Below are positions 18-10,923 of a stretch of 10,923 bases of DNA, in pieces. Numbering within the stretch: position 1 is the stretch's first letter; each line of letters opens with the position of its first letter. The position numbers and the translations under genes were made by a program. Source of the DNA: Dysgonamonadaceae bacterium. GTDB taxonomy: Bacteria; Bacteroidota; Bacteroidia; Bacteroidales; Azobacteroidaceae. The stretch covers positions 1 to 10,923 of the forward strand of contig JAITCT010000284.1 in the NCBI GenBank assembly GCA_031282925.1, given 5' to 3'. The notes below the pieces were generated by a model. It searched no databases. It had not been told where the DNA came from and saw only the letters and a program-made list of their open reading frames with translations.

Positions 18-3000
18 ATGAAAAGATTGTTTTTAGTATTGACATGTTTTTTAATAAGCATGAGTTTGGCAATCGCACAGACCAAACAGGTCTCAGGGAT
101 TGTAACGGATGAGAACGGAGAGCCTGTGATCGGCGCTTCCGTGATTGCAAAGGGAACAACAGCGGGTACTGCAACCGACATGGAAGGAAGATTTTCCTTT
201 TCAGTCGGGGAAAATGTAAGCGCAATAGTTGTAAAGTACATTGGTTACGCGCCGGTAGAAGCGCCGGCCTCCACCGGCGTGAAAATTGAACTCCGTCCGG
301 CCTCTTCACTGTTAAACGAAGTGGTTATCACGGCGTTCGGCATTTCGAAAGAAAAGAAAGCGCTGGGATACAGCATCTCGGAAGTTAGCGGAAATGAAAT
401 GATTACTGCCCGGGGCGGGATGAACAACCCGATGAACGCTTTGCAGGGAAAGGTAGCAGGATTACAAATCGCAAGCAGCAGCGGATCTTTAGGCGGTTCT
501 TCCAAAATTCTCATCCGCGGGAATCACTCTATTTCGGGAAGCAATCAGCCGCTGTTCGTCATAGACGGAGTGCCTGTTGAAGGAAAAGATTTCAACGGAT
601 CGGAGAAGAACGGCAGCAGAAGCACGGAAACCGCCCGGGGGGCCGGCGGATATGATTACGGAAACCTGATACAGGACATTAATCCGGATGATATCGAAAG
701 CGTATCGGTACTGAAAGGCGCAAACGCTTCCGCTTTATACGGCTCGCGGGCAACCAACGGCGTGATTTTGATTACTACCAAAAAAGGAAAGAAAAGCGAA
801 ACGCCGGGCGGTTACGGGATTTCTTTCAATTCGTCCGTCGGTTTTGAAGTTGTGAATAAACTCCCCAAGTTACAACGCCTCTATGGAGGAGGAGGTTCCG
901 ACTTTGATGAAGTGGAAATTAACGGGAAAACTTATCTTTATCCCGATTATGCTACCGACGAAAGCTGGGGTCCCAAATACGAAGGTCAGGAAATCCTATC
1001 CTGGTATGATTTGGCAAAATGGGAAGCCGGAGGAAAAGCCGGTAATCCTACCACATCCAAATGGGTAGCGCCGGCAAATGATATTGACGCTTTTTTTGAA
1101 ACCGGCATTTCGTTTACCAACAATGTATCCGTTACGCAGGCGACCGACCGCAGCAACCTGCGTATTTCCTACACGAACAGCGACCTGAAGGGATATTTGC
1201 CGAACAGTTCCCTGAAGAAAAACGTGTTCAACATCGCCGCTTCTACTAAAAGCGCCGACAACAAACTGGAAGTTTTCACCAACGTGTCGTATCTCAACAC
1301 CGCCGCTCAGGGACGCAGCGAAACCGGTTACGGCGACAACAATCAAATGGTGAAATTCGTACAGTGGGGGCATCGCGAACTGGATTTGAAAGAATCAAAA
1401 GATTTATACCTGATGCCCGACGGCACACAGGCCACCTGGAACCGCACCGCATGGGACAACCCGACGCCGGCTTACAGCAACAATCCTTACTGGAGCCGTT
1501 ATATGAATTATGAAAATGATACCCGCAGCCGGATATACGGTAATGTCGGATTCAGCTATCTGATTCTTCCCGGATTAAAATTCCAGTATAAAGCAAATCT
1601 TGACTTCTTTGCGGATAAACAATTCGAGAGAAACGCGGTATATTCCCAGGAAATCTCCCGCTATCAGGAAATCTCCCGCCAGCGGTATGAGTTGAACAAT
1701 GAATTTTTATGCCTCTACAACAAAACGTTCAACGACTGGTCGGCAGGCGCTAATTTGGGCGGCAACCTGAGGACGGAAAAATATGAATACATCCATGGCG
1801 AAACAAGTGGCGGGCTGGGCGTCCCGCTGTTTTATAATTTGAAAAACTCCGTTTCGCCGGCGCTTTCATATAACAACGTATCGAAAAAGGCTGTCAATTC
1901 GTTGTTCGGGAACATAACGCTTGGATGGAAAAGCCTGGTATATATGGACGCTTCGCTTCGCAACGACTGGTCTTCCACTTTGCCGAAAGCGAATAATTCC
2001 TACAGCTATCCCGCGTTGACCGGCAGTTTCATTTTTTCCGAGCTGACCAGAGAAAGCCTTCCCTGGCTCTCCTTCGGCAAATTCCGTGCAGGCTATGCTT
2101 TTGTAGGAGGCGATACCGACCCGTATCAAGTGGACGATACTTATTCCCATTATACGCATATTGACGCTGTGGCCGGAACGCCGGGATATACCCTGGCTAC
2201 CAAACTCAAAAACAAAGACCTGAAACCGGAAAGAACCGGCTCGTTTGAAACCGGTTTGGAAGCAAACTTTTTCAACGACCGCCTGGGTTTTGAAGTAACT
2301 TTTTATTCCACCGAAACGAAAGATCATATCCTTGACCTTTCCCTGTCGGGATCAACCGGTTATCTGCAACGGGTAATCAATGCCGGCCTGATAACCAATA
2401 AGGGAGTGGAATTGGCCGTTCACGCTTCACCTGTGAAAACGAAAGATTTTGAATGGGCTACCAACTTTACGCTTACTTCGAATAAAAACAAGGTAGTGGA
2501 TATTATCGACGACACGGAATATCTCCGTTTGGTAAGCGCTCCGTTTAAAGTGGAAATAGGCGCTATGAAAGGCCAGCCCTATGGAATCATTATGGGTACG
2601 GATTACATTTACGACGATAACGGAAATAAGGTGGTAAACGAAGACGGCCTTTATCTTTCCACAACCGGGAATGTCAATCTCGGCTCGATTTTCCCCGATT
2701 TTTCCGGCGGATGGAGCAATACTTTCCGTTATAAAAATCTGGATGTAAGCATCCTGCTGGATTTCTCCGGAGGCGGGCATTATTTTTCCACTTCTTATAT
2801 GTGGGGAATGTATTCCGGTATGCTGGAAGAATCGGCTGCAAACGGAATCCGTGAAGACGGAATTATTCTGTCCGGCGTAACGGGTGATGTGCAATTTAAT
2901 GACGACGGTTCCTGTACGGTTACGAATACAGCCGCGAATACGATAACGGTAGATGCGCAGACTTACGGCAAAAGCTATAACACGGGGCCTGCCGCGCAAA

Positions 3001-3251
3001 GCGTGCTTAAATCGGATTATCTGAAACTCCGGGAAATCAACGTGGGCTATACTTTTCCTTTGGCAAGCAGATATTTTGTAAAATCGCTCCGTTTGTCGGC
3101 CTACGGACGTAATTTGGCGGTATGGGGGCCGGATACGAAACATTTCGACCCGGAAACAATTATTACAAACTCAGGGAATATTCAGGGAATTGAAGGCGGT
3201 TCGATTCCGGGAATTGCTAATTTTGGTATTAACGTAAGCTTAAAATTTTAA
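18..3251 (+). CDS. SusC/RagA-family TonB-dependent outer-membrane transporter
   Basis: Outer-membrane barrel that imports a ligand using TonB-ExbBD energy, working with the SusD-like lipoprotein encoded 5 bp downstream. The 1077-aa product starts with a Sec signal peptide (positive MKR, hydrophobic core, likely cleavage after Ala20 in AIA-Q). A carboxypeptidase-regulatory-like beta domain follows at about residues 23-95 (VSGIVTDENGEPVIGASV). A TonB-box-like segment LNEVVITAFG begins at about residue 99. The plug has the typical NALQGKVAGLQI, ILIRGN, PLFVIDGVPV and SVLKGANASALYGSRATNGVI motifs. The remainder is a beta barrel with FPDFSGGWSNTF near the C-terminus and a terminal Phe (NFGINVSLKF). 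Length is normal for the family. The ATG at 18 is the start giving a full signal peptide. Only 17 bp of upstream DNA is visible, so promoter and regulator cannot be judged. The substrate is unknown: glycan is the usual family role, but RagA-type members import peptides. Confidence 0.96.
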   Translation: MKRLFLVLTCFLISMSLAIAQTKQVSGIVTDENGEPVIGASVIAKGTTAGTATDMEGRFSFSVGENVSAIVVKYIGYAPVEAPASTGVKIELRPASSLLNEVVITAFGISKEKKALGYSISEVSGNEMITARGGMNNPMNALQGKVAGLQIASSSGSLGGSSKILIRGNHSISGSNQPLFVIDGVPVEGKDFNGSEKNGSRSTETARGAGGYDYGNLIQDINPDDIESVSVLKGANASALYGSRATNGVILITTKKGKKSETPGGYGISFNSSVGFEVVNKLPKLQRLYGGGGSDFDEVEINGKTYLYPDYATDESWGPKYEGQEILSWYDLAKWEAGGKAGNPTTSKWVAPANDIDAFFETGISFTNNVSVTQATDRSNLRISYTNSDLKGYLPNSSLKKNVFNIAASTKSADNKLEVFTNVSYLNTAAQGRSETGYGDNNQMVKFVQWGHRELDLKESKDLYLMPDGTQATWNRTAWDNPTPAYSNNPYWSRYMNYENDTRSRIYGNVGFSYLILPGLKFQYKANLDFFADKQFERNAVYSQEISRYQEISRQRYELNNEFLCLYNKTFNDWSAGANLGGNLRTEKYEYIHGETSGGLGVPLFYNLKNSVSPALSYNNVSKKAVNSLFGNITLGWKSLVYMDASLRNDWSSTLPKANNSYSYPALTGSFIFSELTRESLPWLSFGKFRAGYAFVGGDTDPYQVDDTYSHYTHIDAVAGTPGYTLATKLKNKDLKPERTGSFETGLEANFFNDRLGFEVTFYSTETKDHILDLSLSGSTGYLQRVINAGLITNKGVELAVHASPVKTKDFEWATNFTLTSNKNKVVDIIDDTEYLRLVSAPFKVEIGAMKGQPYGIIMGTDYIYDDNGNKVVNEDGLYLSTTGNVNLGSIFPDFSGGWSNTFRYKNLDVSILLDFSGGGHYFSTSYMWGMYSGMLEESAANGIREDGIILSGVTGDVQFNDDGSCTVTNTAANTITVDAQTYGKSYNTGPAAQSVLKSDYLKLREINVGYTFPLASRYFVKSLRLSAYGRNLAVWGPDTKHFDPETIITNSGNIQGIEGGSIPGIANFGINVSLKF
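1647..1679 (+). repeat. Short in-frame tandem duplication in the SusC-like barrel
   Basis: A 15-nt stretch at 1647-1661 recurs identically at 1665-1679, an 18-nt period in frame. It encodes QEISRY followed by QEISRQ (residues 544-555). The perfect nucleotide identity suggests a recent duplication or slippage event, probably in a barrel loop or strand end; the structural placement is inferred. Confidence 0.7.
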
Positions 3252-3256
3252 TTATA

Positions 3257-4930
3257 ATGAAAACAAAAGTATATAGTAGAGGAGTAAACGAGTTGACAAG
3301 TAAACGAGTAAACGAGGGGGCAAGTAAACGGGTAAAACGATTCTCGTTAACTCGTTTACTCGTCTACTCGTTTACTATTTTTTTATTTTCGTGCCAGGAT
3401 TTTGAAGAAATCAATACAGACCCGAACAATCCGGTCGAAACGCCTTCAAACATGCTGTTTAGCGGAACGCAAAAGAAAATAATGGATTATGTTTACGACG
3501 TTTGGTTTAGCGGACGTCAAAGCCTGGTGTATGCGCAATACTGGGGACAGCGGAATTATACGGAAGAAGACCGTTATCTAATCCGTGAAAGTGTAAATAA
3601 CAATTATTTCAATACCTTTTATTCGTTAATTGCAAGTCTGGATAGAGTAATCGAATTGAATACGAATCCGGAAACGGCCGCAATATCTTCTCTGTACGGC
3701 AATAACGACAATCAGATTGCTGCCGCCAAGATTCTGAAAGTTTGGCTGTTTTCCATCATGACCGATACATGGGGCAATATCCCTTATTCCGAAGCAGGAA
3801 AACTGGACAAAGGAATTTATTATCCCGAATATGACGATCAGGAAAAGATTTATGAAGAGCTGATAAACGAATTAACGGACGCCGCCGGTTTGATTGATGA
3901 ATCGGAAATTGCGTTTGTTGGCGGCGACAGGATTTATTCCGGCGATGCTTCCAAATGGAAAAAGTTCGCCAATTCGTTGAAATTGCGGTTGGCCGTTCAT
4001 ACTTCCAAAGTATCCGGCTCCAAATGGAAGGAACAGATAGAGGAAGCGCTGGCAGGCGGCGTGTTTGAAAGCAACGGTGATGCAGCGGCCTATCACTATG
4101 GGTCGGCTCCCGAATACAGTTATTTTTACGAAGGATTTTTTATTTCTGCCCGAAACGACTTCAGTCTTACCCGTCCTTTTATTGACATTTTGAAAGGACA
4201 GCGGGATACGTTGAATAATAAAACCCATCCATGGGAAAATGTAATCGATCCGCGTCTCGCCATCTATACAACTCCCCGCAACGGTGAATACATCGGCATT
4301 CCCTACGGCATTCCGTCCGGAGACATGACGGCGGCTTTCCGGAATATGGCGCCGGATCTCTATGCCGCGCCGCCGGTAGTGTTAAATCCCGATTTTCCCG
4401 TTCCTTTGATGACTTACGCCGAAGTTCAATTTATTATCAGCGAATACAAAGGTTTCTCAAAAGAGGAATATAGGGAAGGCGTAAACGCTTCGATTGAATA
4501 TTGGGCAGACTTGGACGGAATCAAGCCGGATAAAGCGAAAACAGATACATATATAGACGCTGTCAGCCAACATGTAAATGCGGAAACTGTCGCCCTGCAA
4601 AAATACATCGACTTGTATATGAACGGAATGGAAGCATGGACGGAAATTCGCCGCACCGGTTATCCTACCCAGTTGCTGAGTCCGTATGAAATATCCGCCA
4701 TAAGCGCCGCTACCGAAACTGCGCCGAGCAAGGAGCTGAAGTTTGAACCGCTTTCGGCTGCCAAAGGACTGATTATTGCACGGGTAAAATATCCGACCAA
4801 CGAAAGTACTTTAAATAAACCGGGTTTTGATAAAGCGGTAAGTAAACTGGAAGACCGGACAAACAATTATTATACGCCGATGTTCTGGGATAAACGCAGG
4901 ACGGAAGGGCTGCATCCGGCTAATAAATAA
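3257..4930 (+). CDS. SusD/RagB-family outer-membrane lipoprotein (SusD-like_2 type)
   Basis: Surface lipoprotein expected to cap the SusC-like barrel and bind its ligand. The 557-aa product carries a lipoprotein signal peptide with lipobox LFSC at Cys46. The mature N-terminus QDFEEINTDPNNP is characteristic of the SusD-like_2 branch. Helical-repeat motifs of the family follow: LKVWLFSIMTDTWGNIPYSEA (about residues 160-180), YDDQEKIYEELINELTDA, WKKFANSLKLRLA and YAEVQFIISEY. The protein ends YYTPMFWDKRR, again family-like. The ATG at 3257 lies 5 bp after the susC-like stop, so the two are almost certainly co-transcribed. The signal peptide is odd: its n-region is about 30 residues long with many Lys/Arg, and residues 9-40 are encoded by an inverted array of 8-bp units (see the repeat entry). 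No in-frame ATG or GTG lies between 3260 and the lipobox; a TTG at 3293 (Leu13) is a less likely alternative start. No hydrolase or regulator is adjacent, so the ligand cannot be inferred. Confidence 0.95.
   Translation: MKTKVYSRGVNELTSKRVNEGASKRVKRFSLTRLLVYSFTIFLFSCQDFEEINTDPNNPVETPSNMLFSGTQKKIMDYVYDVWFSGRQSLVYAQYWGQRNYTEEDRYLIRESVNNNYFNTFYSLIASLDRVIELNTNPETAAISSLYGNNDNQIAAAKILKVWLFSIMTDTWGNIPYSEAGKLDKGIYYPEYDDQEKIYEELINELTDAAGLIDESEIAFVGGDRIYSGDASKWKKFANSLKLRLAVHTSKVSGSKWKEQIEEALAGGVFESNGDAAAYHYGSAPEYSYFYEGFFISARNDFSLTRPFIDILKGQRDTLNNKTHPWENVIDPRLAIYTTPRNGEYIGIPYGIPSGDMTAAFRNMAPDLYAAPPVVLNPDFPVPLMTYAEVQFIISEYKGFSKEEYREGVNASIEYWADLDGIKPDKAKTDTYIDAVSQHVNAETVALQKYIDLYMNGMEAWTEIRRTGYPTQLLSPYEISAISAATETAPSKELKFEPLSAAKGLIIARVKYPTNESTLNKPGFDKAVSKLEDRTNNYYTPMFWDKRRTEGLHPANK
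3273..3378 (+). repeat. Inverted array of 8-bp units forming the SusD-like signal-peptide coding region
   Basis: From 3282 the sequence parses into consecutive 8-bp units: GAGTAAAC, GAGTTGAC, AAGTAAAC, GAGTAAAC, GAGGGGGC, AAGTAAAC, then a degenerate GGGTAAAAC. After a short centre (3339-3345) come reverse-complement units GTTAACTC, GTTTACTC, GTCTACTC, GTTTACTA (3346-3377). As an inverted repeat, 3273-3308 matches 3343-3378 at 29 of 36 positions. In an alternative register, 3299-3316 pairs with 3351-3368 at 17 of 18. The forward units encode VNELTSKR and VNEGASKR (24 nt = 8 aa period). The reverse units encode LTRLLVYSFT, the hydrophobic core. It could be an inserted palindromic element or a locally grown microsatellite-like array; the sequence alone does not decide. 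Confidence 0.9.
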
Positions 4931-5160: not shown

Positions 5161-5784
5161 ATGATATCCTATTACCGAAAAAATAATTTTTACAGTCACA
5201 TTCCTGCATTTACAAAAAATCTGTTGATTATCAATTTAATTGTTTGGCTGGCCTGCCTTTTATTCAAACAGTTGGAATTTTATTTAGCCCTGTTTAATTA
5301 TGATTCGGGGTATTTTCATGCCTATCAACTGATTACCTACATGTTTACTCATGCCGATTTCGATCATATCTTCTTTAATATGCTTGCCCTGTTCATGTTT
5401 GGAGGCGTACTTGAAAATTTCTGGGGAAAAAAACGATTCCTTACTTATTATATGGTAACGGGAATCGGGGCCGGGCTGGTGCAATTATTGGTCTGTCATT
5501 TGCAGGGTATTATGTATCCCGTTCCGACCATTGGCGCTTCGGGCGCAATTTTCGGATTGCTGCTTGCTTTTGGAATGCTTTTTCCGGATACCCCTCTGTT
5601 TTTGATGTTTATACCTGTTCCGATTAAGGCGAAATACATGGTTATCGGTTACGGATTGATCGAATTTTTCTTCGGCGTAGCCAACCGGACGGGCGATAAT
5701 GTGGCTCACTTTGCCCACTTGGGCGGCATGTTATTTGGAATTATCCTGATTTTGTGTTGGGGAAAAAAACAGTATTACAGATGA
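5161..5784 (+). CDS. Rhomboid-family intramembrane serine protease
   Basis: Polytopic inner-membrane protease that cleaves transmembrane segments of other proteins; its substrate here is unknown. The 207-aa product has about six hydrophobic segments, the minimal rhomboid core without an added domain. The catalytic Ser is Ser127 in GASG (residues 125-128). The catalytic His is His186 in AHLGG, at the start of the last helix. The second-helix motif HADFDHIFFN supplies the oxyanion-side His69 and Asn73. All residues needed for activity are therefore present. The ATG at 5161 follows a promoter-like box and an A/T-rich leader. The TGA stop overlaps the ATG of the next gene (ATGA, 5781-5784), indicating translational coupling. 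From memory, Bacteroidales often place rhomboid genes beside EEP-family genes, which this arrangement matches. Confidence 0.96.
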   Translation: MISYYRKNNFYSHIPAFTKNLLIINLIVWLACLLFKQLEFYLALFNYDSGYFHAYQLITYMFTHADFDHIFFNMLALFMFGGVLENFWGKKRFLTYYMVTGIGAGLVQLLVCHLQGIMYPVPTIGASGAIFGLLLAFGMLFPDTPLFLMFIPVPIKAKYMVIGYGLIEFFFGVANRTGDNVAHFAHLGGMLFGIILILCWGKKQYYR

Positions 5785-6893
5785 AACCCGCCAAAAATCT
5801 TTTTCGAGTTATCATTTGTATTTTGAATGTTTTAGCATTGGCGGCTTTACTGATAGCCGCTTTTTCCGATTTTATTTCCCCGTTTAGAGCAGTGATTTTT
5901 TCCTATTTTGGACTGTTCTTTCCTTTTATTTTTCTGTTTAATCTGGCGCTGTTTTTTTTTCTGCTGTTTACCAAACAATGGATATCAGCCGGTTTGAGTT
6001 TCGTGGTTTTCCTTATCTGCACAAGCGCTATTCATACTTATTTCCCCATTCACCCGAAAACAAAAAATGTTCCCGACGATTGCATTAAGATACTTACATA
6101 CAATGTGATGCGTTTTGGTCAACAGGGCGGAAAATCGAAAAAAAAATCCAACAAAATTCTCCGGTACATTCGGGAAAATGATGCGGATATCGTCTGTATC
6201 CAGGAATTTGGCGCTTTAAGAAGCGACAATGGTACACGGCTGACGGAGAAAGATATAACTGTTGCTCTGGATAAATACCCGTATCATAATATCAATGAAT
6301 TAAAATTTCCTCATCCGGATGAAACTTTCGGGGTGGCTGTTTTTTCCAAATATCCTGTTTTGTCGGTAAAGAAAGTTCCTTACGAAAGCGAATACAACGG
6401 TTCGATAATATGTGAATTGAACGTCAAAGGGAGAAAAGTTACCCTGATTAATAACCATTTGGAATCTAATAAATTATCATACGAAGAAAGGAATAATTAC
6501 TATCAAATGACTCAAGAACCGGATTCCCGTTCGCTGGATGTTTTCACAAAAATGATGACCAAACGATTGACTCCCGCTTACCGGTTACGGGCAATTCAGG
6601 CACAAAGCATTTCCAAAATAATAGCGGAGGATACAAATCCGTATATCATTGTTTGCGGGGATTTTAACGATACGCCTGTTTCTTATGCGCGCCGCAAAAT
6701 CAAAGGAAATCTTCGGGATGCTTTCGTGGATAGCGGTTGCGGTTTGGGGATTACCTACAACCGCTACCGGTTTTTATTCCGCATTGACTACATTTTACAC
6801 AGCAGCAACATCAAATCATATAATTGTACCGTGGGGAAATTGCGCGATTCCGACCATTTTCCGGTTTGGTGTTATTTGGAGTTAAGCAAGTAA
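5781..6893 (+). CDS. Membrane-anchored endonuclease/exonuclease/phosphatase (EEP) family protein
   Basis: Predicted metal-dependent phosphodiesterase or phosphatase of the DNase I/exonuclease III fold. I take the ATG at 5781 as start because it makes a 4-bp ATGA overlap with the rhomboid stop; an upstream in-frame ATG at 5754 would add nine residues. The 370-aa product has about three N-terminal transmembrane helices (roughly residues 7-31, 35-62, 66-88). The EEP domain follows with its full catalytic set: Asn108 in TYNVM, Glu142 in QEFG, His226 in NNHLES, Asp294 and Asn296 in GDFND, Asp336 in RIDYIL, and Asp358-His359 in SDHFPV. By the positive-inside rule (Lys near the N-terminus and in the loop after helix 2), the catalytic domain would face the periplasm; this is inferred. 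The substrate is unknown: nucleic acid, a lipid head group or a sugar phosphate are all possible. Two 9-nt homopolymers (T9 at 5952-5960, A9 at 6138-6146) lie inside the gene. Confidence 0.93.
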   Translation: MKPAKNLFRVIICILNVLALAALLIAAFSDFISPFRAVIFSYFGLFFPFIFLFNLALFFFLLFTKQWISAGLSFVVFLICTSAIHTYFPIHPKTKNVPDDCIKILTYNVMRFGQQGGKSKKKSNKILRYIRENDADIVCIQEFGALRSDNGTRLTEKDITVALDKYPYHNINELKFPHPDETFGVAVFSKYPVLSVKKVPYESEYNGSIICELNVKGRKVTLINNHLESNKLSYEERNNYYQMTQEPDSRSLDVFTKMMTKRLTPAYRLRAIQAQSISKIIAEDTNPYIIVCGDFNDTPVSYARRKIKGNLRDAFVDSGCGLGITYNRYRFLFRIDYILHSSNIKSYNCTVGKLRDSDHFPVWCYLELSK

Positions 6894-6918: not shown

Positions 6919-9900
6919 TCACTGTTCACCTATAGAATCAATCGAAAGCGTGTTGTGTTTCTTTCCCAACAAATCGGAAAAGTGGTTGAAATCTTTCCTG
7001 AAAAGGATACCGACTCCCTGCGTCATTTCGGGAGCTAAATTATAATAATTGCGGTAATTGTAGTGATTGAAAAACTTCAGGCGGGTGTTTCCTTTCTTTG
7101 TCAATTTGTATTCGAGGTCGAAATCGCCTATCCAGTGGATATTACTCCCTTGATTGTCATTGTCCAAATAAATATTGTCCCGATAGCCTACATTTCCATT
7201 GATAATTAACCGGTTATCCAGTAGCTGACTGGATAGGAGAAGTTCCATTTCAGTGCTGCTCCCGCTTTCTTCGTTTGATTGGTAGAATTTTGTGCCGACC
7301 AGTTGGATTTTGTCCGTAAAAGCGTCCAAAATATTGGAAAATTGAGTGGACAAAGTAGAGGTGAGCAGCGACACGTCGGTGCTGCTTTTTGCATTTCCGC
7401 TGTATTCCGGGGTAGGGTAGAAAGTATTCAATACCAGGAGGTAAAAAATCTGGCGGTTCATCATGTCTTCGGTGCGGATATAGCTTTTAACTTGCCGGTT
7501 CAATTCGGGCGTCGAATTGGGGAGTTCCAAATCAAAAGCAATGGACGGATGGTTCATCCCGCCGGTCAATTGAAGGACGCAATTGACTGTGGTATTTATT
7601 CTTTGCTGATCTTTAATCAGTTGTTGATCTAAGTCGCCCAGATTGGCGGTTAATTTATAATTGGCTTTTACATTTAAATCGGCCGTATAGGGATCGCCCC
7701 GGAAAGAAACGGAACTTCCTTCCTGAATATCGAAATTGCGGTAAATCGCTTGCTGGAAGCTGAAATTATATTTTCCTTTTTCGATGGTATAGGTTCCCAA
7801 TACTTTCGGGGGCATTTTTGTCCCGTACTGGATTTGCAGCGTCCCGTTTCCGTAAGCGCTTATTTTATCGCCGGATACGGGATCCATCATCATTTCAATC
7901 GTTGCTTGCGGATTGGCGTCCAACATGAGGTTGAGGCGAATTTCCGTTCCGGAATCCGGTGCGGGCAAGTGGACGGTTGTTCGCGCAGGAATTAAATTTT
8001 TTTTTGGTTTGACAAAGCGGATGAAATCGTAATCGGCAATGTCCGGTTCGTCCGTAAAGTTCAAGGTAATCTTTGTGTTTGCGGTATTTTGCATCGTAAC
8101 GTCAATATCTACCAAATCTTCCGTCCCCGACAAACTTACGGTTCCCGTACCGTAAGCCGTTCCGTAAAATAGCGGATTTTTCGTTTTATTAGCATTGAAT
8201 ACCATGAAATTATTGAAAGAAATGTTGGCCGAATATTTAAAATCTTCAAACAAGGTGTGCTTGACATAGCCGTTTGCCAAAGCCTGCTGTCCGTGTTCGT
8301 CAACAAGGCGAATGTTTTCGGCGCGTATTTCATCGGGATAACACCTGATTGTATCGCTGAAAGTGTAATAGGTGTTGAGAAAGTCAATACCGAACCGGCA
8401 GTTTTCAGCATAAACCGTTCCTTTGATAGCAGGGTCGTTCAGATCTCCGAAAAGACGTATATGTCCGGTCAGGCTTCCGCTAAGGTTTTGAGCTATATTA
8501 TTTAAGTATTTCCGGAGGAAACTAGCATTCAGGCTCGTTGCGTCAAAATCAACGGACAACAGTTCTTTTCCCGGATAAATAACGCCGTTAATATTCAGGC
8601 GGGGCGAGTTGTTTTCATAAACGATACCCTTCAGGAGAACGCCCTGGTTTTCGTCGTTCCATTTGCCGGTCAAATCCAAATCGCCCACAGTAACCCGGTT
8701 GAAAGCGAAATTTTTGACATCCAGATGCGTGGATAACTTCCGGGTTTTATACAGGTCTTGGACGTTGACAAATCCGGTAGCTATTCCGCCAAATTCCAAA
8801 GCTTTGATTTTCAATGACTGAAAGATGTAATCCAAATTCACTTTGTTTAATTCGACGAGCAGTTGCTGTTCGGGGTTGTGGGAAATAGCACCGTCGATTT
8901 TAAGGAACTGGTCATCGTGTGCGGCTAATAAATGGTTTATCTTAACGGTCGATGAATCGGCATGAATTTCGGTAGGATAAAGCGTCCATATCAAATCGTT
9001 GAACACCAGCTTCGACTGTTGGATATTGATTTGGGTTCTTTTCCCTTTTGAAAAAGAAGCGTTCAGGTTCAAATCACCGCGATATTTTTCGGATATATTT
9101 CCCCAGTTTAAATGGGCTTTAATCAGGTCGTCGCCGGCATTGAGCCGGACGGTGAAATGCAAAGGGCGGTCGTTTTTTTGCAGCAGGTTTCCCGACAGGT
9201 TCAACAGGGCTTCTCCGGTCGAATTGTTCAATGCTATTTTCAGGTCTTTCAGACTTGAATTTCCGAATTTTGCACTGTGAACGCCTGCGTCCAGGTTGAA
9301 ATTATCGTAAACGCTGTTGTATTGTCCGGTGATGCGGGTTTGTTCCCGAAAAGTAAACGGGAGTTCGAGAACGTGGGAAAGATATGTCAGGTCTTCAATC
9401 GTCAAATCGAAAGAAAAAAGATTTTCTTCGGATGCGAATGATTTGTTATTTGTATCAAACAGAGAGGGAAGATGCCGGGACAAAGTCTTTTTTATTTTGG
9501 GGATGAAAGTACCGACCGAATACATTCCGCGAACTTCACCATGAAATACATCCGAGTTGACGCTCAGGGTTTTTTCATTTCCGGACGAAACGGATGTAAG
9601 GGCTAACCGTTCGAGGTCATAATTTCCTTTATCCGTTTCGAAATGGATATTGTTTAAGCTGACGGTTCCCAGTAAATTGTCGGGATTGTTTCCGGTTAAA
9701 TTGGCGTTGGCTTCAAAAGAAAGGGAAGTGTTTTTGTACTTTGGGGCTATATTTAGTTTATCCAAGTGTAAATCAGTTGCTTTTGCCGTAAATTCAAATT
9801 CGGACTTCGCGCCTTTCAACAGGAAAAGTCCGTTAGCCGAGATTTTTCCTTCGGGGCTGTCCAAGTTTAGCCGTCCGGTAAAACTTTCGGGAGTAAAATT

Positions 9901-10923
9901 GCCTTTGAAACTAAAATTATTGTAAGTATAACTTTTGTACTCAAATTTTTCGATATCTCCGTCAATCAAGCCTGCGAACTTTTTGTTTGCCTGTTGTTTG
10001 ACGTCGAAAACGATTTTGAAAACGGTTTCACCGAAATCCTTGTTGCCGGTTAAGGTTGCTATATTCAGTTTCGGCGAAGCGATTTGCCCCTTAAAAGCAG
10101 CGGCATTGGGAGTTATTTCGACATTGGCGGCGAGAGTGCCGATTTCGCTGTAGAATGTTCCGCCGACAGATAAACTGTCAGGAGAACCGCAGACACTCCC
10201 TTGAAAACTCATGCTTTGCATTTGCCTGATTGGAGCCGGCAATTCAAAAGGATTTTTGCCTAAATTGTTTACTATTTTTTCAACAGCAGCCGGGGCAAGG
10301 AATGAGTCCTCAATTTGTGCATTGATAAAAAGCGCTTTGGAATTTGAATCGAAAAGGTTTTTTATTTCGGCGTTTATTTTGAACATCAAAGAGTTGTAAT
10401 ATCCGATACGGAGGTTTTGTATGTTCAAAACATCCTGCGTTCCCGAAAAATAACCGTTTATGTTTATTTTATCGCCGAATTGCGACAATACGGGGACGAA
10501 TGGACTAATGTCTTTTAAATAGACGTCCGAATTATCCATCGTCAACCGGAAAGTTAGATTTTTGAAGCGGTTATCATTTTCCGGTTTACCGTAATCAGCG
10601 GTTATATCTTTGATTGTCAGGGAAGTGTTTTCTAATTTCAGCAATAACCGGCTTATGGCGGCTTTCTCTTTACCTGCTTTCAGGTCAAATGCCAAGCGTT
10701 TCACTGTGAAACCTGTTTTTGCCTTGAAACTTAGCCTGTTTACGACAATATCCAATGTATCGCCGGTAAAGTCGCGGACTTTGATTTTGGAAGTTATATC
10801 ATTTAACCGGAACGATTTAGGATTGAATTTACCGAACGTTTCGGATGCGTCCTTTTCGCGGTAAGAAAAACTTCCGCTACGCAAATCAATGTCTTTTATT
10901 TGTAAATCAATGGAATTGTTTTT
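6919..10923 (-). CDS. tamB: TamB-like translocation/assembly module protein (5' end outside window)
   Basis: Very large envelope protein related to TamB/AsmA-type inter-membrane bridges, which in Proteobacteria work with BamA-family TamA in outer-membrane protein assembly and in phospholipid transport. The window holds the last 1334 codons. The frame is open without a stop to the window edge, so the gene continues to the right. A TTG at 10884 can serve as a nominal start but is not the true one: the preceding 13 codons (NNSIDLQIKDIDL...) continue the same beta-rich pattern, and the expected N-terminal membrane anchor is absent. The visible protein is mostly short amphipathic beta-strand repeats, consistent with an elongated hydrophobic groove. 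The C-terminal TamB/DUF490 domain spans about the last 450 visible residues, including NPQATIEMMMDPVSGD, GNGTLQIQYGT, LLSSQLLDNRLIINGNVGY and the ending GVGILFRKDFNHFSDL. It converges on the EEP gene with a 25-bp gap. From memory, a tsaD gene often neighbours tamB in Bacteroidales; that would lie beyond this window. Confidence 0.93.
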   Translation of the reverse strand, partial: KNNSIDLQIKDIDLRSGSFSYREKDASETFGKFNPKSFRLNDITSKIKVRDFTGDTLDIVVNRLSFKAKTGFTVKRLAFDLKAGKEKAAISRLLLKLENTSLTIKDITADYGKPENDNRFKNLTFRLTMDNSDVYLKDISPFVPVLSQFGDKININGYFSGTQDVLNIQNLRIGYYNSLMFKINAEIKNLFDSNSKALFINAQIEDSFLAPAAVEKIVNNLGKNPFELPAPIRQMQSMSFQGSVCGSPDSLSVGGTFYSEIGTLAANVEITPNAAAFKGQIASPKLNIATLTGNKDFGETVFKIVFDVKQQANKKFAGLIDGDIEKFEYKSYTYNNFSFKGNFTPESFTGRLNLDSPEGKISANGLFLLKGAKSEFEFTAKATDLHLDKLNIAPKYKNTSLSFEANANLTGNNPDNLLGTVSLNNIHFETDKGNYDLERLALTSVSSGNEKTLSVNSDVFHGEVRGMYSVGTFIPKIKKTLSRHLPSLFDTNNKSFASEENLFSFDLTIEDLTYLSHVLELPFTFREQTRITGQYNSVYDNFNLDAGVHSAKFGNSSLKDLKIALNNSTGEALLNLSGNLLQKNDRPLHFTVRLNAGDDLIKAHLNWGNISEKYRGDLNLNASFSKGKRTQINIQQSKLVFNDLIWTLYPTEIHADSSTVKINHLLAAHDDQFLKIDGAISHNPEQQLLVELNKVNLDYIFQSLKIKALEFGGIATGFVNVQDLYKTRKLSTHLDVKNFAFNRVTVGDLDLTGKWNDENQGVLLKGIVYENNSPRLNINGVIYPGKELLSVDFDATSLNASFLRKYLNNIAQNLSGSLTGHIRLFGDLNDPAIKGTVYAENCRFGIDFLNTYYTFSDTIRCYPDEIRAENIRLVDEHGQQALANGYVKHTLFEDFKYSANISFNNFMVFNANKTKNPLFYGTAYGTGTVSLSGTEDLVDIDVTMQNTANTKITLNFTDEPDIADYDFIRFVKPKKNLIPARTTVHLPAPDSGTEIRLNLMLDANPQATIEMMMDPVSGDKISAYGNGTLQIQYGTKMPPKVLGTYTIEKGKYNFSFQQAIYRNFDIQEGSSVSFRGDPYTADLNVKANYKLTANLGDLDQQLIKDQQRINTTVNCVLQLTGGMNHPSIAFDLELPNSTPELNRQVKSYIRTEDMMNRQIFYLLVLNTFYPTPEYSGNAKSSTDVSLLTSTLSTQFSNILDAFTDKIQLVGTKFYQSNEESGSSTEMELLLSSQLLDNRLIINGNVGYRDNIYLDNDNQGSNIHWIGDFDLEYKLTKKGNTRLKFFNHYNYRNYYNLAPEMTQGVGILFRKDFNHFSDLLGKKHNTLSIDSIGEQ

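Follow-up and report, generated by a model that had tools for sequence, protein, structure and literature searches.

Inverted octamer arrays of Bacteroidales and one array within the signal-peptide codons of a SusD-like gene

The window, by which the whole analysed stretch of 10,923 nt is meant, carries a SusC-like TonB-dependent receptor gene (18..3251, + strand; Pfam Plug, 5.5e-17, and CarbopepD_reg_2, 3.5e-15) upstream of an intact SusD-like lipoprotein gene of 557 aa (3257..4930, +). The latter was placed among the SusD-like lipoproteins by its SusD-like_2 domain (2.2e-90), which stands behind an LFSC lipobox that was judged by inspection. The remaining genes look ordinary and comprise a rhomboid protease (5161-5784, +), an endonuclease/exonuclease/phosphatase family protein (5754-6893, +), and TamB (6919-10884, -).

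The initial annotation had described an inverted array of 8-bp repeats within the signal peptide of the SusD-like gene, and this array turned out to be real. It occupies positions 3274-3377, or about codons 7-40 of the open reading frame, with the lipobox Cys following as residue 46. The forward arm (3274..3337, +) consists of eight units in phase from 3274, five of them exact matches to RAGTWRAC (TAGTAGAG, GAGTAAAC, GAGTTGAC, AAGTAAAC, GAGTAAAC, GAGGGGGC, AAGTAAAC, and GGGTAAAA), and reads RGVNELTSKRVNEGASKRVK. A loop (3338..3345) separates it from the reverse arm (3346..3377, +), whose four GTYWACTY units, three of them exact (GTTAACTC, GTTTACTC, GTCTACTC, and GTTTACTA), read SLTRLLVYSFT. 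The two arms are 91% complementary (3283-3316 against 3343-3376), and the RNA fold of 3275-3378 reached -44.2 kcal/mol (z = -7.1), with 0 of 200 dinucleotide shuffles folding as well. An Rfam search of 3150-3500 gave seven matches up to E 1, all far under the gathering scores. Searching proteins with the array-coded N-terminus returned the window protein alone among 4 candidates, which carries little weight because shared 5-residue words were required.

The array was absent from all six of the closest SusD orthologues (G022, 86% identical; G016, 77%; G002, 75%; G004, 75%; G018, 66%; G007, 64%), and since close orthologues lack it, the array state is most simply derived. Alignment to these array-free genes located the junctions. 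Where the G022 gene, which starts with MKTKLYQYLIISVIASFSFSCQDFEEIN, has 29 bp of signal-peptide core (CAATATCTTATTATATCCGTTATTGCTTC), the window has 104 nt (3275..3378, +; boundaries from a local alignment, precise to a few bases), a difference of +75 nt that keeps the frame. The proposal that MKTKVY and FSC on either side of the array are leftovers of the original signal peptide held up, as array-free orthologues show both: the start codon and n-region remnant (MKTKVY; 3257..3274, +) reads ATGAAAACAAAAGTATAT against ATGAAAACAAAACTATAT in G022, with the bases upstream conserved too, and the remnant of the h-region and lipobox (FLFSC; 3379..3394, +; Cys codon 3392-3394) aligns with SFSFSCQDFEEIN in G022.

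The rebuilt core, LLVYSFTIFLFS, is made of LLVYSFT from the array and the remnant IFLFS, and has a mean hydropathy of 2.07 compared with 2.14 in G022, 2.41 in G016, and 2.32 in G002. The array alone reached 1.03 in its best 12 residues, and 2.07 was attained only together with the remnant, so that the h-region of the window is a hybrid. Over 523 codons, dN was 0.077 and dS 0.415 between the window SusD and its G022 orthologue, and single changes polarised by G016 amounted to 35 silent and 18 replacing changes on the window branch and 33 and 7 on the G022 branch. The relatively more numerous replacing changes on the window branch could possibly reflect some relaxation of constraint.

The initial annotation had held that an array occurring nowhere else would count against its mobile-module idea; the array belongs to a dispersed family present in this genome and in its relatives. 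Searching the host genome (G000; 2.04 Mb in 349 contigs, 74% complete) gave 174 matches to the 20-base pattern RAGTWRACRAGTWRACRAGT and 0 to its reversed control. On 41 contigs (320 kb), all of which had been picked for carrying pattern matches, 84 arrays in 54 elements were found, and neither mononucleotide-shuffled nor reversed sequence gave any. These are short-unit dispersed arrays, with many tandem copies of one unit far over control. The arms stood in forward-then-reverse order in 51/51 two-armed elements from three genomes, and in 95/95 with named loci added, these sets overlapping as the named loci partly coincide with the genomes analysed (L155, for example, is a G015 gene). In the unit profile, collected with one mismatch tolerated, positions 2, 3, 4, 7, and 8 hardly change; variation is found at positions 1 (mostly G/A), 5 (A/T), and 6 (A/G). 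L049 (3291-3498) holds a forward octamer array joined to a common AAGAAGGGTTTTAGCCCT segment in triplicate, in direct orientation and at a spacing of about 84 bp.

The octamer array family is patchy across Bacteroidales. Pattern matches occurred in 13 of 58 relatives, this genome counted in; within the genus, G015, G016, G017, G019, and G022 had 31 to 339 matches, four others had 1 to 3, and 24 of 33 had none. A sample of the order gave matches in 8/295 genomes, only three of them with more than two (this genome with 174, G176 with 55, and G161 with 18; control 0 in each). The reversed control pattern matched 14/295 genomes of the same sample, with up to 31 matches in one, and order-sample counts of one or two therefore carry no weight. 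This control pattern was itself repeated in G188 (31 matches), G135, G108, G085, G102, and G151, and may represent a further short-unit repeat family. In a phylum sample, 1/395 genomes matched, namely this one, with a few control matches elsewhere. Scanning named genomes with one 19-mer gave at least 106 stretches, and among the matches listed (80) the titles were of Bacteroidales, isolates included, save one unclassified 'uncultured bacterium'; they include Prevotella, other Prevotellaceae, Muribaculaceae, Dysgonomonadaceae, Bacteroidaceae, Parabacteroides, Paludibacter, Azobacteroides, and Marinifilum. The octamer alphabet is also present in isolate records such as those of Prevotella jejuni DSM 26989 and Segatella buccae ATCC 33574.

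The position of the elements relative to genes was assessed on contigs of G000, G022, and G019. Of 90 elements, 77 had a gene on either side and the other 13 were at contig edges. Set against 332 gaps of 60 bp or more that held no element, elements were found more often between co-oriented genes (63/77 vs 214/332, p = 0.003) and less often between divergent genes (4/77 vs 66/332, p = 0.0012), with 10/77 vs 52/332 between convergent ones. The median distance to a stop codon was 5 bp (n = 83) and that to a start codon 17 bp (n = 71), and several elements finish 5-25 bp before an ATG. Placement relied on simple ORF calls, and an ATG within 90 nt after an element filed it as upstream of a gene, a rule that misfiled the window copy in this way. 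Signal-peptide placement was seen in 2/54 elements of this genome (the window and L042), the rest, judged from simple ORF calls, looking intergenic or uncertain.

The claim made at the outset, that the reverse arm has no stops and is hydrophobic whatever the frame, describes a tendency and not a rule. Over 30 nt, reverse arms were stop-free in 229/303 arm-frames compared with 69% of random 30-mers, and the stop-free arm-frames had a mean Kyte-Doolittle value of +0.92 (random: -0.26), 40% of them exceeding 1.0 (random: 12%). Forward arms were open in 63/303 arm-frames with a mean of -1.00, and frame independence is only partial. The underlying argument that every frame reads the same cyclic set of codons is exact for identical units and does not extend to mixed ones, because GTTAAC units yield TAA in one of three frames. 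A 24-bp coding super-repeat was rejected, as unit similarity had no peak at lag 3 and anticorrelation was confined to neighbouring units, and an excess of open frames in forward arms (44/101 vs a shuffled mean of 36.2, sd 4.3, maximum 49) was too weak to be used.

Arrays in the signal peptides of other exported proteins were found both in this alphabet and in sister alphabets. Nine exported-protein genes from six genomes of the genus carry 7- or 8-mer arrays within their signal-peptide codons, with the signal peptides judged by eye and 6/9 of the genes reached via array-led or homology-led searches. A frame screen covering 249 elements (overlapping sets, leaving out loci such as L042 with an ATG up to 18 codons after the element) yielded two more SusD genes with an array-coded signal peptide, L056 in G012 and L155 in G015. 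The L056 signal peptide, MKKFKYLVYSLTCLLVYSSC, is coded by four reverse octamers; its orthologue in G017 (80% identical) begins MKQIYFLISKRVNELTSKQVFASFVTCHLSLACLLFSC, from forward octamers followed by GTCACTT-type heptamers, and the orthologue in G019 (74%) begins MKKQFSILSFQFSILITVLSGC, from CAATTCT-type heptamers. One orthologous SusD thus has three different repeat alphabets in its signal peptide in three species, and a more distant homologue in G013 (42%) has an ordinary signal peptide. In L312, a second SusD of G019, both octamer arms lie in signal-peptide codons, which also hold arrays in a GH30 enzyme of G017 (L302 3769), in an outer-membrane efflux protein of G000 (L042 2945), and, as CCCTTTA-type heptamers, in a GH16 protein of G022 (L221). 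L155, L221, and L042 are weaker cases because a hydrophobic stretch persists outside the array coding (L155 and L221) or an ATG is present after the array (L042 and L221).

A leader of the form MK[QH][SL].[LI]TNT with its own ATG matched in three loci, preceding reverse arrays as MKHSRLTNT (L042 2945), MKQLCLTNT (L052 1439, -), and MKQSCITNT (L155 1362), and L098 has a looser relative of it. In an ABC-transporter ATPase (L034 6578-7459, +) and a radical SAM protein (L294 10687-11982, -), the N-terminus is coded in frame by heptamer arrays.

The frequency with which arrays reach gene starts was estimated from 770 genes on contigs of G000, G022, and G019, of which those of G000 and part of the others had been picked for octamer arrays and none for signal peptides. 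Strong period-7/8 arrays covered codons 1-45 in seven genes, codons 45-90 in none, and codons 100-145 in one. At the N-terminus, no array had a period of 5, 10, 11, or 13, and four had period 14, which is a multiple of 7; a single period-13 array fell in codons 100-145. At a looser threshold, 11 N-terminal arrays were found for periods 7 and 8 compared with 3 for periods 10 and 11. Among the seven strong N-terminal arrays, three are in signal peptides (the window, L042, and L221), two are in frame in cytosolic-looking proteins (L034 and L294), and for two the start was probably miscalled (L075 and L227). The 3/5 among the in-frame arrays do not prove a preference for exported proteins, because a crude rule assigned a signal peptide or something similar to 251/770 genes. 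A set of 174 loci enriched for arrays (720 genes, some of them duplicates), screened at a looser threshold, gave 26 N-terminal period-7/8 arrays but also 7 in codons 100-145. Across the order, an ATG with a close reverse arm was found at five places in 4/393 genomes (reversed control: 2/393), using a strict pattern that would not match the window itself.

Turnover of the arrays was evident where orthologous places could be compared, which was the case for 11/54 elements against 60 G022 contigs (flank identity 85-95%). Both genomes had octamer arrays at 6/11 places, with unit orders that differ by eye; G022 had other sequence at 3/11, of which L043/L227 and L040/L229 carry heptamer arrays and L084/L214 an inverted repeat, and no array at 2/11, having 29 bp at the place of the window array and 16 bp at that of L076. 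These two array-free comparisons are both replacements, and neither shows a visible target duplication. Periods 7 and 8 together made up 143/218 tandem-repeat rows in G000 contigs and 192/354 in 40 G022 contigs, and were not dominant among the tandem repeats of G019. Most of the 27 loops compared were private: shared 10-mers linked three pairs among the matches listed, and of these L041/L086 has common flanks too.

Maintenance of the hairpin by compensatory change was rejected, as arms of the same element were no more alike than re-paired arms (0.674 vs 0.686, sd 0.013, 72 pairs) and swapped halves folded equally well (-0.399 vs -0.397 kcal/mol per nt for native ones). The arm comparison equally spoke against fold-back copying as the source of the second arm. 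By these arm-likeness and swapped-half tests, the strict inverted order is kept but exact pairing is not. Nor was the sense strand the more stable one (12/35 elements, p = 0.053), which likewise spoke against compensatory change. A Y1 transposase (PF01797) as driver was also rejected, since its presence does not appear to track array richness: in these incomplete genomes, none was found in the array-rich G016 and G019, only sub-cut-off matches in G015, and 12 in the array-free G004. The suggestion that the array moves as a unit was not borne out, as most loops are private, no target duplication is visible at the two array-free comparisons, and Y1 does not appear to track array richness. Arms that are independent of each other, loops that are for the most part private, and replacements that leave no visible target duplication appear to fit recombination or template switching from one array to another, together with slippage, better than transposition, and arrays would arrive by that route.

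I consider it likely that the arrays are rapidly turning-over intergenic repeat hairpins which are now and then captured as signal peptides. In some Bacteroidales, arrays of RAGTWRAC units, loop, and GTYWACTY units normally reside between genes of the same orientation, and one such array would have been copied into, or have grown within, the 5' end of the SusD-like gene, displacing about 29 bp of its core. Outcomes with stops or polar cores would have been lost, and the reading of the reverse arm, mostly stop-free and fairly hydrophobic, would have made survival likely, with the forward arm open here as a Lys/Arg-rich peptide. Because both arms are open in this frame, n-region, h-region, and lipobox are still encoded and the gene was kept. 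Similar captures would have taken place in other exported proteins of the genus, in octamer and heptamer alphabets, and the array-coded signals would presumably function in export.

The secretion-signal module envisaged at the outset, taken as a dedicated mobile element under selection to insert at start codons and provide signal peptides, could account for the bias of reverse arms towards a hydrophobic reading, for the nine exported-protein genes, and for the elements ending 5-25 bp from an ATG. I nevertheless hold it to be quite improbable, and the claim was not upheld: the elements of this genome are nearly all intergenic, with 2/54 in signal peptides, the window core is incomplete without the remnant IFLFS, heptamer arrays of other sequence achieve the same, and the order-wide search gave just five places. 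Unlikely as well, if somewhat less so, is a MITE- or REPIN-like element moved by a host transposase and inserted by chance into the SusD-like gene. Its dispersed and inverted occurrence, patchiness among species, and the few elements with a common loop sequence would agree with this, but the common terminal repeats and interior that define a MITE were not seen in the 27 mostly private loops, one of the three sharing pairs among the matches listed shares its flanks too, 29 and 16 bp were replaced without visible target duplication at the two array-free comparisons, the arms are not mutual copies, and the array-rich G016 and G019 have no Y1 transposase as assembled.

It is very improbable that the array is an artefact, either untranslated, with the protein starting elsewhere, or misassembled. 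At other loci, ORF calls are indeed drawn upstream through intergenic arrays by reverse arms poor in stops, and the assembly, in 349 contigs and 74% complete, is fragmented; yet array-free orthologues share the start codon and the bases upstream, the stretch from the array to the lipobox Cys has no in-frame ATG, and the alphabet is present in named isolate records as well. Intergenic hairpins with occasional capture remain the preferred reading, by which export signals may occasionally be rebuilt from repeat DNA. A wider proposition is put forward tentatively, with slightly less than even confidence: signal peptides in the genus might evolve by capturing tandem-repeat DNA, whereby 7- and 8-mers, coprime with the codon, would invade gene 5' ends, and the mature protein would be conserved while its signal is repeatedly rewritten from a common repeat pool, with the reverse arm before the cleavage site serving as h-region. 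The source of new signal peptides is seldom visible, and here orthologues show both the array and the array-free state; with three alphabets in one SusD gene, it becomes possible to test whether signal peptides originate from non-coding repeats. This class of arrays can also mislead gene-start annotation because the reverse arm tends to hold frames open.

No description of this array class was found in the open-access literature, where a 12-base array string occurred only in unrelated organisms and six further strings or peptides did not occur. Intergenic palindromes and short tandem units in many copies are known from REP/REPIN palindromes with their RAYT transposases and from cyanobacterial STRR heptamers. 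Compared with REP/REPIN, the present arrays have no REP-type fixed palindrome, and the presence of Y1 transposases does not appear to track them.

As far as searched, the closest systems in print are the TAACTGA heptamers, the Rickettsia palindromic elements, and the BrickBuilt MITE. TAACTGA heptamers are direct repeats found in Beggiatoaceae, Cyanobacteria, and some Bacteroidetes, patchy across lineages and mostly intergenic; in BOGUAY they lie mostly just upstream of start codons, and a few overlap or lie inside ORFs (PMC4679880). Like the present arrays, they are short-unit, tandem, mostly intergenic, near start codons, and patchy; in contrast to the inverted arms of RAGTWRAC units, they have a 7-nt unit of another sequence and are direct, with one inverted set reported, and the available part of that report describes no signal-peptide role (PMC4679880). 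Rickettsia palindromic elements, of about 150 bp and in ten families with a conserved peptide, are palindromic repeats in frame inside coding genes, and in this they are like the window and the eight further genes, whereas the present arrays have variable octamer arms, private loops, and coding cases that are mainly N-terminal (PMC10969869). The BrickBuilt MITE of Porphyromonas gingivalis, also from Bacteroidales, likewise has tandem repeats in a dispersed inverted-repeat element, but is described with an unrelated 23-nt unit, a defined leader and tail, and IS5-like ends, and as always intergenic (PMC4596501). The present arrays resemble the TAACTGA heptamers in kind but differ from them in unit and orientation, and resemble the Rickettsia palindromic elements in coding capture, not in build.

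The frame screen also showed a separate arrangement at the named-genome loci L103, L108, L174, and L151, three of them titled uncultured Bacteroidales or Prevotellaceae, where carA and carB are joined in frame by an octamer array that sits after the end of the one and before the start of the other. Both genes read as a single ORF across a linker such as NELTSKRVDKLVEEGNN, and this ORF stops about 570-580 aa into carB in L108, L174, and L151, and runs off the locus in L103.
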